NCBI RefSeq assembly: GCF_900009265.2
Contig: NZ_LR734982.1
Span: 310,077-374,076, forward strand
Direction: 5' to 3'
Source: Planktothrix paucivesiculata PCC 9631
Lineage (GTDB): Bacteria > Cyanobacteriota > Cyanobacteriia > Cyanobacteriales > Microcoleaceae
Length of the DNA stretch: 64,000 nt
The notes beneath the pieces are model-generated. The model was not told the origin of the DNA, ran no database searches, and saw only the letters and a list, made by a program, of their open reading frames with translations. Every line of letters begins with the position of its first letter. Position 1 is the stretch's first letter. Shown here in pieces: positions 3,058 through 64,000 of the stretch. A program made the position numbers and the translations under genes.

Positions 3058-3530
3058 AAAAAACCAATTGTTGATCACTTTGTTGAGTGTATCAACAGAT
3101 TGGAACTTTCTATATGATTCCCTATTCCTTGCTAGATCAAAAAAAAGTGTAGGGGCGAATCAGATATCACAAAAACGGGCACCCCGACCTTGTATGATTT
3201 CCACCCCTACTTACGAACCCGCTACCACATCTTCAAAGAGCGATGCTACCCGATTGAGTCTATATTCGGCTCCCCTGAATTACTTAAGAGGATTTATATA
3301 ATCTCGGAGCTACAGGACACATCTCTCTGCTACTGTGCGCCTATTATGGCAATATTACTAGGGTTTGAAAATCTATAAAGTTAACAAGTTTGATCAGTAA
3401 AATTGCTGGCTTTGAGGCTTTCAGGGTTAATACACACATTTTCTGTGTTTTGTCAAGACACAAAAGTAAGCATTTTCTGTATTTATGGCAATAAAAATCA
3501 AAAAATTCATTCCCTGTTGCCTATTCCCCT
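3058..3530. other. Intergenic region, no gene seen
   Basis: About 470 bp between the divergent-facing 5' end of crtO and the 3' end of the DnaJ-like gene. Short open frames here show no protein-like composition. A segment near 3149-3190 (AGGGGCGAATC...CGGGCACCCCG) resembles decayed copies of the GGGCGGG repeat seen at 30587. Nothing else is supported. Confidence 0.5.
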
Positions 3531-59325: not shown

Positions 59326-60471
59326 ATGAAAAAACTGGTTTTAATTGGTGGAGGACATAGCCATGCGATCGCCTTAAAAAAATTGGGAATTAATCCCTTA
59401 TCAAATGTTGAATTAACCTTAATTTCCGATGTAGTTAAAACCCCCTATTCAGGAATGTTACCCGGGTATATTGCCGGGTTTTATAGTTTTGATCAATGTC
59501 ATATTGATTTACCGTCCTTAGCTGAATTTGCTCAAGCTAAACTTTATATTGATTCAGCAATAGGTTTAGATTTAGAAAAAAATCAGGTTATCTGTAATAA
59601 TAATCCTCCCATTCCCTTTGATATTCTATCTATTGATATTGGTAGCACTCCAACACCCTTAACGATTCCTGGCGCGATCAAATATACGATTCCTGTTAAA
59701 CCCATTTCTCAATTTTTGCAATACTGGGATCAATTAATTCAGGAAATTAAGCAAAATCCGCAAGAAAAAATGAGATTAGCGATTGTGGGTGGCGGTGCCG
59801 GAGGGGTAGAATTAGCTTTAAATATTCATAGCCACCTAACGCAAATTTATCAACAATTTAATCAACCTTTAAATCAGTTAGAATTGCATCTAATTCATAG
59901 CGGTAATCGGCTATTATCTGAACGCCATCCTAGTTTAAGTCAAAAGGTAGAAACTATTCTAAAAAATCGTAATATTCATGTACACTTAAATCAAACCGTT
60001 AATCAAATTGAGCAGAATCAGGTTAAAATAATTAGCTGTATATCGGGGTTAACCCTAGAATGCGATCGCATTTTTTGGGTAACACAAGCCAGCGCGTCTC
60101 CCTGGATTCAACAAACAGGACTCACAACGGATCAAAGAGGATTTATTCTCGTTAATCATTACTTACAATCTATTTCCCATCCTCAAATTTTTGCCGCCGG
60201 AGATATCGCTACAATGGTTAATTATCCTCGACCCAAAGCGGGAGTTTTTGCTGTGCGCCAAGGTCAACCTTTATTTGAGAATTTAAAACGAAGTTCACAA
60301 GAAAAACCCCTAAAACCCTTTATCCCTCAAAAAGAATTTTTAATTTTAATTGGCACAGGAGATCAAAAAGCGATCGCATCTAAAGGAAGGTTTAATCTGG
60401 GGCCATATTCTTTATTTTGGCGATGGAAAGATTATATTGATCAAAAGTTTATGAGACAGTTTAGGACTTAA
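59326..60471 (+). CDS. FAD-dependent pyridine nucleotide oxidoreductase (TIGR03169-type)
   Basis: 381 residues. FAD motif KLVLIGGGHSHAIALKKLG at the N-terminus and NAD(P) motif RLAIVGGGAGGVELAL in the middle; C-terminal FAD motif IFAAGDIATM then RPKAGVFAVRQG. The GGGHSH start is diagnostic of the group often fused N-terminal to selenide-water dikinase (SelD) in cyanobacteria and algae. Here the protein ends after the flavoprotein part, with no SelD domain. Its substrate may be a quinone. Short A/T-rich DNA follows. Confidence 0.82.
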   Translation: MKKLVLIGGGHSHAIALKKLGINPLSNVELTLISDVVKTPYSGMLPGYIAGFYSFDQCHIDLPSLAEFAQAKLYIDSAIGLDLEKNQVICNNNPPIPFDILSIDIGSTPTPLTIPGAIKYTIPVKPISQFLQYWDQLIQEIKQNPQEKMRLAIVGGGAGGVELALNIHSHLTQIYQQFNQPLNQLELHLIHSGNRLLSERHPSLSQKVETILKNRNIHVHLNQTVNQIEQNQVKIISCISGLTLECDRIFWVTQASASPWIQQTGLTTDQRGFILVNHYLQSISHPQIFAAGDIATMVNYPRPKAGVFAVRQGQPLFENLKRSSQEKPLKPFIPQKEFLILIGTGDQKAIASKGRFNLGPYSLFWRWKDYIDQKFMRQFRT

Positions 60472-60539
60472 TTTTAAAAATCAAACTATTTTATATAATA
60501 AAAAATTTAAAAATTAAATGATAATAATGATGCTAAATT

Positions 60540-60556
60540 ATCATAAATTTTATGAT
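60540..60556. promoter_or_regulatory. Perfect palindrome upstream of the restriction gene
   Basis: ATCATAAA-T-TTTATGAT, an 8+1+8 perfect dyad, 63 bases before the endonuclease GTG. TATGAT within it and TATATT just after could act as -10 boxes, so the dyad overlaps a likely promoter. It resembles an operator for a small autoregulator; no C-protein gene is seen. The methyltransferase could be the regulator. Confidence 0.55.
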
Positions 60557-60618
60557 ATATTAAATCCATACAAAAGAATATAACAATAAGTTCAAAATAG
60601 AGTGAGGTAAACGCTAGA

Positions 60619-61539
60619 GTGAGCAAATACAAACGTAGTTTAGTAGAACTTCGAGAAAAAGCTGTTTTAAACTGGCCAAAAGAACTACTAGATAAAGCAG
60701 GTGAAGCGAGTATTCTTCCTCTATTACTCAAAACACAAGATAAATTTATTAGTATTCTAACTCTTGCTAATTCTGAGCCTGAATCTTGGCAAAAACTTGT
60801 TGATCTTTCTCTGGATATGCCAGGAAATCTTTTTCTTAAACATTTAATTGTTTTGAGTGATTTAGGTGGAGAATCTTTAAACAAGTATCCACCTATCACT
60901 AAGTATTTTAAAAATAATCGGATGGATTATATATGGAAAACAAAAAAATATTCCTATCAATTCAAGGTTATTTTTAAAAAAGTTCCTTTAACAAATTCTT
61001 CATTAAAGGTAGATGGAAAATCTTTAGTTAAAGGATTTCCCTTAAATGATAAAATGCAAGATGTAGTTATGTTGATTTTATATGGAGCTACTGCTTTAAA
61101 TATTAATCTTCCTGATTCGGAAAAGTTTATGATTGGTAGTTTATTAGGAAAGTCAGACGAAATTCAAAATTTTGTGAAACAAAATTATATTCGAGTAAGT
61201 CGGCAAATTAGTGGAGCAACATCAACTAAACTGGGTAGTCTAGCCGAAGACTTTGTTATCCGTGTTTTAAAAGAAGAGCTACCTACTTGTAAAATCAATC
61301 CATTCAAACAAATCGAGGGTACAACATTTGATATTGTTGTTTCCACTCCTAATAATAAATTATTTGGCATTGAGGTGAGTTTTCAGTATACAACGAATAG
61401 TACAATTGAACGAAAAGCAAGAGAAGCTAAAGACTTAGCAAAATTATTGCATAATGCGGGTCATTTTATTTGTCATGTTATAGATGGAGCAGGTAATATT
61501 AACATTAGAGAAAATGCAGTAAGTACAATTTGTAAGTAG
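60619..61539 (+). CDS. Restriction endonuclease, C-terminally truncated by a MITE
   Basis: 306 residues as it stands, from the GTG at 60619. Family not named. A PD-(D/E)XK-type site is suggested by GTTFDIVV (Asp) and LFGIEVSFQ (Glu-x-Ser/Gln, with the usual Lys replaced), preceded by helix KLGSLAEDFVIRVL. It is followed by a cytosine methyltransferase on the same strand, the normal R-M order. The MITE at 61533-61660 supplies AAG TAG, giving ...STICK-stop. Removing the MITE with one TA restores ...STIC then SSSDCTVAF...FIRDNS in the same frame, a further 25 residues, to a TAA just before the methyltransferase. Activity of the short form is unknown. Confidence 0.7.
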   Translation: MSKYKRSLVELREKAVLNWPKELLDKAGEASILPLLLKTQDKFISILTLANSEPESWQKLVDLSLDMPGNLFLKHLIVLSDLGGESLNKYPPITKYFKNNRMDYIWKTKKYSYQFKVIFKKVPLTNSSLKVDGKSLVKGFPLNDKMQDVVMLILYGATALNINLPDSEKFMIGSLLGKSDEIQNFVKQNYIRVSRQISGATSTKLGSLAEDFVIRVLKEELPTCKINPFKQIEGTTFDIVVSTPNNKLFGIEVSFQYTTNSTIERKAREAKDLAKLLHNAGHFICHVIDGAGNINIRENAVSTICK

Positions 61540-61660
61540 GTAGTCATAAATAAAGTAACAATAAGAAGACGGTTTGTTGTTGCGATAGGGCGCATGGGTA
61601 TGGGCTTAAGCCCAACAACGAACTTTTTTATATGGGCGAATAATTATGACTACCTACTTA
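61533..61660. mobile_element. MITE (128 bp, TA target duplication)
   Basis: Perfect 17-bp terminal inverted repeats: TAAGTAGGTAGTCATAA (61533-61549) and TTATGACTACCTACTTA (61644-61660). The outermost TA at each end is the expected TA target duplication of IS630/Tc1-mariner-type elements. There is no open frame inside. The interior includes GGGCTTAAGCCCAACAACGA, related to the hairpin at 27297. It is inserted in-frame into the endonuclease gene; excision leaving one TA rejoins the reading frame exactly. Confidence 0.88.
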
Positions 61661-61737
61661 GTTCTAGTGATTGTACTGTAGCTTTCTCAAAGGAAGAAAT
61701 TCAGCTATTAGCCAACTTTATTAGAGACAATTCCTAA
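61661..61737 (+). pseudogene. Severed C-terminal end of the endonuclease gene
   Basis: The frame GTT-CTA... is closed, but read in the restored phase it gives SSSDCTVAF...QLLANFIRDNS and TAA at 61735-61737. It has no start codon or ribosome site of its own. It is the coding sequence displaced by the MITE. The methyltransferase ATG follows eight bases after the stop, which shows that the two genes were tightly coupled before the insertion. Confidence 0.8.
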
Positions 61738-61744
61738 CATTAGA

Positions 61745-62953
61745 ATGAAAACGATTAAATTCATTGATTTATTTGCTGGAATAGGGGGAATCAGACTTGC
61801 TTTTGAAAAAGCAGCTTTCTCGTTAGGATTCCAACCTCAATGTTTACTGAGTAGCGAAATTAATCAAGATTCCAGATGGGTTTATCAAGCCAACTTTAAG
61901 GACAATGCTTTAGGTGATATTAGGACAATCGAAAAAGTACCAGAACATGATGTTTTACTAGCGGGATTCCCCTGTCAATCATTTTCTTATGCAGGTAAAA
62001 AAGAAGGCTTTGGAGATACAAGAGGAACATTATTTTTTGAAATCATGAGATTAATAGATACAAATAAACCTCAAATTTTAATATTAGAGAATGTACGAGG
62101 AATTCAGACTAATGATCAAGGTAAAACCATTCAAACAATAGAATATGAAATCAAAAAAAGAGGCTATAGTTTTCAAATATTTTTATTAAATAGCTGCAAT
62201 TTTGGTTTGCCTCAAAATCGATTAAGAGCTTACATAATTGCTGTCTTAGGACAATCTCCAAAATTTAATATTATCTCTGATACAGGGCCACAGGATTCTC
62301 ATTCTTATATGCAGCAACTTTCTCTATTTCACCAAAATCAATTTTCCTGTGTTAAAACAATTTTAGAAGATAATCCCGATCCAAAATATGATTGTTCTCC
62401 TATTTTTATTGAACGCTTAAATAACTATTTAAAAGGTGATTTAAAAAGGCTACATGGAAAAAGATTAATTGATTATCGCGGGGGAAACTCCATACACTCT
62501 TGGGAATTGGGTTTAAAAGGAGAATGTAGTACCCAAGAAATTGAGTTAATGAATCTTTTTATTTTGAAAAGACGAAATAAAGAGTTTGGAGATGAACAAG
62601 ATGGGAAACTTTTAACTAAAGATCAAATAGCTACATTTTTTAATTCTCCTAATTTAGATGATCTTCTTCAATCATTAGTCAATAAAAAATATCTTAAAAT
62701 TATTAATCACCAATATAAACCCGTGAGTGGCAATTTTTCTTTTGAGGTATATAAATTCTTAGATCCTGAATCTATTGCTGTGACCTTAGTAGCGAGTGAT
62801 GCGAATAAATTGGGTGTTTATCATAATCATCGTGTTCGTCGGATTACTCCCCGTGAAGCGGCTCGCTTACAAGGTTTTCCTGACCATTTTTGTCTACATT
62901 ATAATGATGACAAGGCTTATGATCAATTAGGAAATTCTGTTAGTGGGACTTAA
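61745..62953 (+). CDS. DNA (cytosine-5) methyltransferase, 3' end truncated by IS
   Basis: 402 residues as it stands. Motif I is IKFIDLFAGIGGIRLAFEKAA; motif IV is LLAGFPCQSFSYAG with catalytic C77; motif VI is LILENVRGI; motif VIII is GLPQNRLRAYII; motif IX is RRITPREAARLQGFPDHF. The target recognition region is between about 205 and 345. Motif X begins normally (YDQLGNSVS), then ends GT-stop where GNSV-x-x-P and a final helix are expected. The break coincides with the left end of an IS701-like element, so the last roughly 10-20 residues were lost. Whether it still methylates is open. The recognition site is unknown. Confidence 0.85.
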   Translation: MKTIKFIDLFAGIGGIRLAFEKAAFSLGFQPQCLLSSEINQDSRWVYQANFKDNALGDIRTIEKVPEHDVLLAGFPCQSFSYAGKKEGFGDTRGTLFFEIMRLIDTNKPQILILENVRGIQTNDQGKTIQTIEYEIKKRGYSFQIFLLNSCNFGLPQNRLRAYIIAVLGQSPKFNIISDTGPQDSHSYMQQLSLFHQNQFSCVKTILEDNPDPKYDCSPIFIERLNNYLKGDLKRLHGKRLIDYRGGNSIHSWELGLKGECSTQEIELMNLFILKRRNKEFGDEQDGKLLTKDQIATFFNSPNLDDLLQSLVNKKYLKIINHQYKPVSGNFSFEVYKFLDPESIAVTLVASDANKLGVYHNHRVRRITPREAARLQGFPDHFCLHYNDDKAYDQLGNSVSGT

Positions 62954-64000
62954 ACAAAAATAAGGAGGGAAATAGATGATAATGATTATAGAGCAAGCAG
63001 ATAACGTTAAAGAATAACCCATGAAAGAGACAACCCCGGCAGCGATGCCCCCTTGCTTCGATAGATGGTGTGGTCGATTTGACGATATTTTCGGCCATCA
63101 AGCCCAAAAACGGGAATTTAGGAACTATTTAGGGGGATTATTGGGAGAAAGTGAGCGAAAAAACCTGTCGCAAATGGCGAATAACGCCGTAGGAGTAACT
63201 TACCACCGATTACACCACTTTTTAACCGAAGCTCCTTGGTCAGCAATGAAACTAAATCAGCGTCGGCTGGAGGTGATGAATCAGTGTAAGCAAACCCAGA
63301 TTAGTCGGGGATTTGCTCTAATTATTGATGATTCAGGACATCGAAAAAGCGGAAATTTTACCGATGGAGTCGGACGACAATACATCGGAGAAATCGGAAA
63401 AACCGACAATGGAATTGTAGCAGTAACGAGCCATCTATACGATGGTAAAAAAAACTTACCATTAGATATAGAATTATATCAAAAAGCCGAGTCATTACCC
63501 TTAGGAAAAGCCGACCCCGAATTTAAAAAGAAACCAGAAATAGCATTAGAATTAATAGAGAGGAGCTTAGACAGAGGATATCGACCGGGAATTGTGCTAA
63601 CAGATGCCGGGTATGGAAATAACACAAGTTTTTTACAAGAGTTAGAGAAAAAAGGATTAAAATATATAGGGGGAGTCGCCAAGAATCGAAAGGTAATCCT
63701 CAAAAAAGGGGAAGATGAAACCGAGGAAACTCGATTAGATAATTTAGCTAAATCGTTGCCCCAAGGAGCTTTTAGTGAAATTCAACTCCCAGTAGAAAAA
63801 ACCAAAACTGTGTGGGTAGCAACACAAGAAATTGAATTATCAAAGTATGCCGGGAAGAAAGTAATAGCCATCGTCATGAATGCTGCCACTTTCGACCAAG
63901 CCAGTGATATTGATTATTTAATGACTAATGTTGAGGTTTCAAAAGCCACAGGAGAATGGATAGTAACGACCTATTCACAAAGAAATTGGATAGAAGTTTT
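62945..64000 (+). mobile_element. IS701-like insertion sequence, cut by window edge
   Basis: It begins at or near TGGGACTTAAACAAAAATAA, where the methyltransferase frame is lost, and carries the transposase from 63021 to beyond the window end. The right end is not visible, so terminal repeats and target duplication cannot be checked. The ~76-bp leader before the transposase has two GGAGGG/GGAG-like ribosome sites. Confidence 0.8.
63021..64000 (+). CDS. IS701-family transposase (partial, 3' end outside window)
   Basis: 326 codons open to the edge, from the ATG at 63021 (MKETTPAAMPPCFDRWCGRF). IS701-type DDE enzyme: the first Asp pair is in ALIIDDSGHRKSGNFTDGVGRQYIGEIGKTDNG, the second Asp in IVLTDAGYGNN. 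The catalytic Glu should lie just beyond the last visible residues (YSQRNWIEVF). It appears intact so far. It cuts and pastes the element that broke the methyltransferase gene. Confidence 0.9.
   Translation, partial: MKETTPAAMPPCFDRWCGRFDDIFGHQAQKREFRNYLGGLLGESERKNLSQMANNAVGVTYHRLHHFLTEAPWSAMKLNQRRLEVMNQCKQTQISRGFALIIDDSGHRKSGNFTDGVGRQYIGEIGKTDNGIVAVTSHLYDGKKNLPLDIELYQKAESLPLGKADPEFKKKPEIALELIERSLDRGYRPGIVLTDAGYGNNTSFLQELEKKGLKYIGGVAKNRKVILKKGEDETEETRLDNLAKSLPQGAFSEIQLPVEKTKTVWVATQEIELSKYAGKKVIAIVMNAATFDQASDIDYLMTNVEVSKATGEWIVTTYSQRNWIEV

Follow-up and report, generated by a model that had tools for sequence, protein, structure and literature searches.

In what order does a restriction–modification (R-M) system come apart when mobile elements have broken both of its genes? 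The question is raised by a two-gene operon on the + strand of a 64,000-nucleotide stretch of Planktothrix paucivesiculata PCC 9631 (NZ_LR734982.1, positions 310,077 to 374,076), here called the window, which is part of contig C100 of a draft genome of 6.15 Mb in 184 contigs. The operon consists of a BanI-family endonuclease gene followed by a C5-cytosine methyltransferase gene, the first interrupted by an element resembling a miniature inverted-repeat transposable element (MITE) and the second by an insertion sequence (IS) of the IS701 family. We read it, with a probability of about 80%, as a Type II R-M operon of the BanI kind in late decay, in which restriction was lost first, through a short in-frame gap, the MITE or both, and the methyltransferase afterwards through a recent IS insertion. 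Decay of this sort is ordinary in kind, being a known type of event, and is here unusually well documented; no published description of the event in this operon was recognised among the titles and abstract starts retrieved.

Two insertions in one operon

An earlier note on this DNA had proposed two independent insertions, a MITE in the endonuclease gene and an IS in the methyltransferase gene, and the proposal proved correct to the base: both elements, their TA and TTAG target duplications and the severed gene tails were located (Table 1). The endonuclease frame (60619-61539) begins with GTG, encodes 306 amino acids and, as the note had stated, takes its stop codon from the element. Its match to PF24447 (RE_BanI) scores 392.5 bits against a cut-off of 28 and ends before the profile does, so that the protein is not full length. 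The missing part of the profile, positions 310-336, is found 3' of the element in the same frame (G000:C100:371724-371804, corresponding to 61648-61728 of the window), and the 25 residues which the note held to be removed are thus a severed tail, still in an open frame, that matches the end of the profile.

Members of the IS630 family duplicate a TA on insertion, and those of the IS701 family a 4-bp YTAR target. The element in the endonuclease gene has perfect 15-bp terminal inverted repeats and a TA on both sides, features which it has in common with a full IS630-type element: elements of approximately 1.18 kb in the same genome carry its end with one mismatch and a TA on each side, and the single one examined has a gene for a DDE_3/HTH_32 transposase, in keeping with that family. 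Whereas MITEs derived from IS630 elements are described by their many copies, this one has two full-length copies in the genome, alike at 119 of 124 bases, and a single partial relative elsewhere (77% identity, in G004, at E up to 1e-15), too few to date it against the IS. Read together with its TA, the inverted end contains, within 11 bases, a stop for each of the three frames, and insertions of this type therefore soon terminate any reading frame.

The methyltransferase frame (61745-62953) stops two residues inside the IS. The motifs GFPCQS and ENV are present, as is GNSV, the beginning of motif X; the remainder of motif X is cut off, as had been claimed. The 28 C-terminal residues are severed, and their codons resume directly behind the element with the frame open. 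The IS itself measures 1360 bp from 62944 (L056:8021-9380), has TTAG on both sides and encodes a complete transposase of 421 residues (NF033540, 271.2 bits against a cut-off of 150 for the partial protein in the window). It agrees with the IS701 family in its YTAR-type duplication, its terminal repeats and its transposase. Seven other copies with both ends occur in the genome (L040-L046), five of them with like YTAR flanks and two without (L042, TTAG/TTAT; L044, CTAG/TTAG). When seven full-length copies were compared, leaving out the 2074-bp compound copy L041, the copy in the operon had 0 private columns, and its insertion is therefore probably recent.

A naturally short endonuclease can be excluded. 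Among the best 80 of 195 relatives, taken as loci of named genomes, 72 have a frame of 330 residues or more. None of these full-length homologues ends at the MITE breakpoint, each continuing for 23 or more residues beyond it, and a loose tail motif was matched in 71 of the 72. A sequence search for solved structures related to the endonuclease gave no match at E up to 1. A general decay by point changes was also considered and showed no clear excess: of the 62 positions that do not vary in 12 close homologues (start codon left out), four deviate uniquely here, compared to 0-4 in the others.

The operon in relatives

Ten genomes of the genus, with G000 as the window's own, were examined for both genes. 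An intact methyltransferase with its endonuclease absent or reduced to a 3' stub is found in four of them (G002, G003, G006 and G009). Both genes are broken in two, G000, in which both are hit, and G001, which has an endonuclease stub and a methyltransferase with a large internal deletion. Both genes are missing from G004, G007 and G008, the flanking regions meeting directly in G004, and no close match to either gene was found in G005, a genome that is 73% complete. The uninterrupted genes that the earlier note had suggested looking for are present: the endonuclease 3' end is whole and of equal length in G009, G001 and G003, and the methyltransferase is uninterrupted at the IS site in G009, G002, G006, G003 and G001. 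None of these congeners, three holding the endonuclease site and five the methyltransferase site, shares a breakpoint with the window. The four intact congener methyltransferases end 25 to 29 residues past GNSV.

At least three junctions are involved in the endonuclease losses, one common to G009 and G001 and a distinct one in each of G002 and G006; the stub of G003 is at another locus. Gene trees of the methyltransferase and of the oxidoreductase upstream of the operon both separate G000 and G009 from G002, G006 and G003, an agreement compatible with descent of the methyltransferase within the genus. Inside the second group the two conflict, one tree placing G002 with G003 at 100 and the other G006 with G003 at 75; the branch of G003 is long. 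The methyltransferase of the window has a synonymous divergence of 0.31 from its nearest congener, and dN/dS is 0.075-0.142 in all ten pairs of five species. Species-unique codon changes, non-synonymous to synonymous, number 5/15 here, 1/15 in G009, 1/7 in G002, 3/3 in G006 and 13/39 in G003, too few to establish a strong relaxation on the branch leading to this genome.

In G002 a deletion (L127, junction near 3068) has brought the methyltransferase ATG directly behind the first 16 bases of the endonuclease gene, and the short leader frame so formed ends, by eye, in a TGA that overlaps this start (ATGA). In G006 (L128:5114-7509) an open reading frame (ORF) of 156 residues is followed by one of 642 residues, whose repeat-rich N-terminal part runs in frame into the C5-methyltransferase; G008 has at the same locus what appear by eye to be similar versions of the two N-terminal pieces, without a methyltransferase.

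To look beyond the genus, the states of the two genes were counted by hand in 27 scorable genomes. The endonuclease is broken or absent and the methyltransferase intact in 13 (G002, G003, G006, G009, G010, G011, G018, G019, G020, G026, G098, G114 and G118), both are intact in ten (G014, G021, G023, G034, G043, G047, G121, G254, G273 and G322), both are broken in four (G000, G001, G012 and G025), and the reverse state occurs in none. Left out were G144 (an intact endonuclease with no C5 partner within 1.5 kb), G248 (a contig end) and matches below the family cut-off. Two borderline cases were scored as broken endonucleases: G018, with one early stop that an internal start could rescue, and G114, in which the N-terminal part is missing. 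Sampling was uneven, the methyltransferase having been searched for in 36 genomes and the endonuclease in 59 and 292. In these relatives an intact methyltransferase was observed repeatedly in the absence of its endonuclease.

The 80 named loci form a separate set, chosen by their endonuclease and kept out of the tally, as some appear to be the same genomes. A C5 partner was found with two queries in 39 of them and not in the other 41, of which 36 have a full-length endonuclease and five do not. Among the 39 partnered loci both genes are intact in 34 (L205 lying at a contig edge), the endonuclease alone is broken in two (L237 and L243), both are broken in one (L229), the reverse state occurs in one (L216), and in one the methyltransferase is cut by a contig end (L177). 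The operon resembles BanI-type Type II systems in its PF24447 endonuclease, in having a C5-methyltransferase nearby and in the depletion of GGYRCC in its genome, and differs from them in that both genes are truncated by insertions and the endonuclease has a short in-frame gap.

In PMC6471742 and PMC3488263, solitary or orphan methyltransferases are described as remaining after endonuclease loss. A like state, with the methyltransferase alone or beside a stub, is seen in eight genomes of the family, four of them congeners, and dN/dS is low among the five species compared within the genus; in the window's genome, by contrast, the methyltransferase is broken too. It may be, at slightly short of an even chance, that the methyltransferase has been kept in the genus as a working solitary enzyme (domestication) after at least three separate endonuclease losses, including the deletion in G002, and that the window's genome has very recently lost this modification-only stage as well. 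If this were true, the genus would be a natural series for testing whether restriction-first loss is obligatory. The comparison marks out a conserved solitary C5-methyltransferase whose function can be tested in species without the endonuclease.

Target-site depletion and the order of loss

BanI recognises GGYRCC, and this is also the probable target of the operon. The non-palindromic forms of the site are GGCACC and GGTGCC, which palindrome avoidance as such leaves untouched. They occur 32 times in 464 kb of this genome (the window plus L245-L264) against 102.4 expected, a depletion of approximately three-fold, and this ratio of 0.31 is the lowest of 32 patterns of the type tested, GGRYCC (1.8 expected) being set aside; ACRYGT comes near it, with five against 14.9 in the same sample. 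In 200 kb each, the counts are 13 against 34.1 in G009 and 47 against 70.0 in G004, which is without the operon. The palindromic forms of GGYRCC are low in all three genomes, like many other palindromes. The depletion fits a long-resident system of this specificity and a trace that would outlive it. Site avoidance as a trace outliving lost R-M systems is described in PMC4687349. As in that account, the target here is still depleted after apparent loss; the present case differs in that the broken genes can still be found and recognised.

Avoidance of palindromic hexamers is in itself extreme in the 464 kb (seen/expected: CTGCAG 0/61.9, ATGCAT 0/51.1, GGATCC 0/42.2, AGTACT 0/26.3), and many palindromes are near zero also in the 200 kb samples of G004 and G009. 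Many restriction systems may have been active over a long time; a literature search on palindrome avoidance returned nothing. In PMC8262939, Planktothrix is placed among the cyanobacteria richest in R-M systems.

The following sequence of events would account for these findings. The operon would have been long resident in the genus, and restriction would have been lost first, via the short in-frame gap, the MITE that severs the last 25 endonuclease residues, or both. With cutting gone the methyltransferase would no longer have been essential, and would have been kept for a while until the recent IS701-family insertion removed the end of motif X. We infer that both truncated proteins are inactive and, from the state of the relatives, that restriction died before modification; the MITE is likely to have been the first blow. 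The death of an R-M system is usually visible only as an absence. In this genus several of its stages can be seen together: genes that are nearly whole, intact methyltransferases accompanied by endonuclease stubs, operons in which both genes are broken, and loss of the whole operon. The expected asymmetry, in which the cutter is lost before the protector, can thus be counted and need not be assumed.

The earlier note had gone further and held that the order could be deduced from this genome, with the endonuclease hit before the methyltransferase because loss of methylation while cutting remained would kill the cell. That restriction goes before modification is supported by the comparison (13 to 0 of 27); that the MITE came first and the IS second is not demonstrated, and the order cannot be read here, where a gap of approximately nine residues in the endonuclease may precede the MITE. 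Nor is lethality an absolute rule: endonuclease genes next to corrupted methyltransferase genes are reported in PMC3488263, and the argument from lethality alone is therefore insufficient.

Several observations weigh against restriction-first decay as set out above. In G009, G001 and G003 the six bases at the MITE site are different and include no TA, so that these congeners show an unbroken gene and not the exact empty target. The genomes of the tally are related and unevenly sampled, and the counts are not independent events, so that a binomial figure computed from them carries no weight; four of the 13 (G010, G011, G019 and G020) may have been without a BanI-type endonuclease from the start, and without these the count is 9 to 0. 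L216, from a metagenome bin, combines an intact endonuclease with a split methyltransferase, the reverse of the expected pattern; its frame break may be a sequencing error. The GGYRCC depletion could come from deamination of 5-methylcytosine or from another system, and the palindromic forms are depleted in the operon-less G004 too (GGCGCC 5/18.6, GGTACC 11/30.4).

The alternative that survives best is that the endonuclease was already dead through the in-frame gap (or through loss of expression), and that insertion of the MITE and the IS, in whichever order, followed in a functionless system, which we consider possible, with odds clearly below even. Immediately ahead of the inferred catalytic D the endonuclease is short of approximately nine residues, and the segment from VSR to FD has 44 residues here compared to 51 to 80 in 52 of the 53 full-length homologues in which it could be measured (the other 19 of the 72 missed the motif patterns); the one shorter value, 32 in L223, is by eye a false motif match. 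None of the 12 closest homologues has a gap in this region. Against this, loop length varies in the wider family, and, this gap and one of two residues aside, the open frame retains the inferred catalytic residues. The gap may reflect natural variation or may have inactivated the enzyme at an earlier time, and its position near the inferred active site means that the MITE need not have been the killing hit.

It is unlikely that both truncated proteins still work and that the pair is a functional system with new C-termini, since, despite otherwise open frames and the presence of GFPCQS, ENV and GNSV in the methyltransferase, the endonuclease tail is present in 72/72 full-length homologues and the stretch behind GNSV in 4/4 intact congener methyltransferases. 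It is likewise improbable that the first hit was to the methyltransferase, with survival of the cell ensured by another genomic methyltransferase that covered the target: the genome does hold seven other C5-methyltransferase loci, but the closest matches at 48-49%, mostly over the N-terminal part, and the pattern in relatives points the opposite way. An assembly artefact at a repeated IS, conceivable in a draft of 184 contigs with several near-identical copies, can be dismissed as highly improbable, and chance is unlikely too, given the TTAG on both sides, the recurrence of both kinds of element in the genome with the same ends, and flanks that are contiguous in congeners, including the methyltransferase halves at this very point in five of them.

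The surrounding locus and the endonuclease family

The operon is bordered on the left by the oxidoreductase gene and, beyond the window, by an ORF of 149 residues and then, by eye, a response-regulator-like ORF. The oxidoreductase was matched in all ten genomes of the genus, only partially in G005.

Table 1. Coordinates of the interrupted operon and adjoining features in the window
Feature	Position	Strand	Evidence or remark
Pyridine nucleotide-disulphide oxidoreductase, upstream neighbour, left border of variable locus	59326..60471	+	PF07992
BanI-family endonuclease, 306 codons; codon 306 (AAG) straddles the element junction	60619..61536	+	PF24447 E 1.9e-117, profile 1-314 of 338; PADLOC REase_II E 1.4e-62
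Target-site duplication TA, left	61533..61534	.	flanks MITE
IS630-type non-autonomous element (MITE-like), 124 bp, terminal inverted repeats AGTAGGTAGTCATAA; holds new stop TAG 61537-61539	61535..61658	.	
Target-site duplication TA, right	61659..61660	.	flanks MITE
Severed 3' end of endonuclease gene, 25 codons + stop	61660..61737	+	PF24447 profile 310-336; uninterrupted in G009, G001, G003
C5-cytosine methyltransferase, cut just past GNSV	61745..62943	+	PF00145 (DNA_methylase) E 1.2e-76; TIGR00675 E 2.3e-89
Target-site duplication TTAG, left	62940..62943	.	right copy L056:9381-9384, beyond window
IS701-family element, 1360 bp, ~300 bp past window end; transposase from 63021, 421 aa in full	62944..64000	+	NF033540 E 1.6e-80

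Within the genus the interval from the oxidoreductase to the 149-residue neighbour is variable (L156, L157 and window 60472-64000). It is occupied by the R-M operon, by a two-gene module without an assigned function, or by what appear by eye to be a leucine-rich-repeat-like gene and an antitoxin-like ORF.

The two closest relatives of the endonuclease (57-61% identity; L165:668-3516 and L166:4001-6786) are followed by an amino-methyltransferase in place of the C5 enzyme, that of L165 being an N6_N4_Mtase with an HNH-repeat match and that of L166 alike by eye. Judged from these neighbours, partner exchange appears to occur in the BanI endonuclease family. Homologues of the family are also found in 28 plasmid records, 21 from Escherichia and three from Salmonella, with 23 typed as mobilizable; identity is approximately 41% in the ten rows listed (H2-H11), and most of those listed are labelled hypothetical protein.

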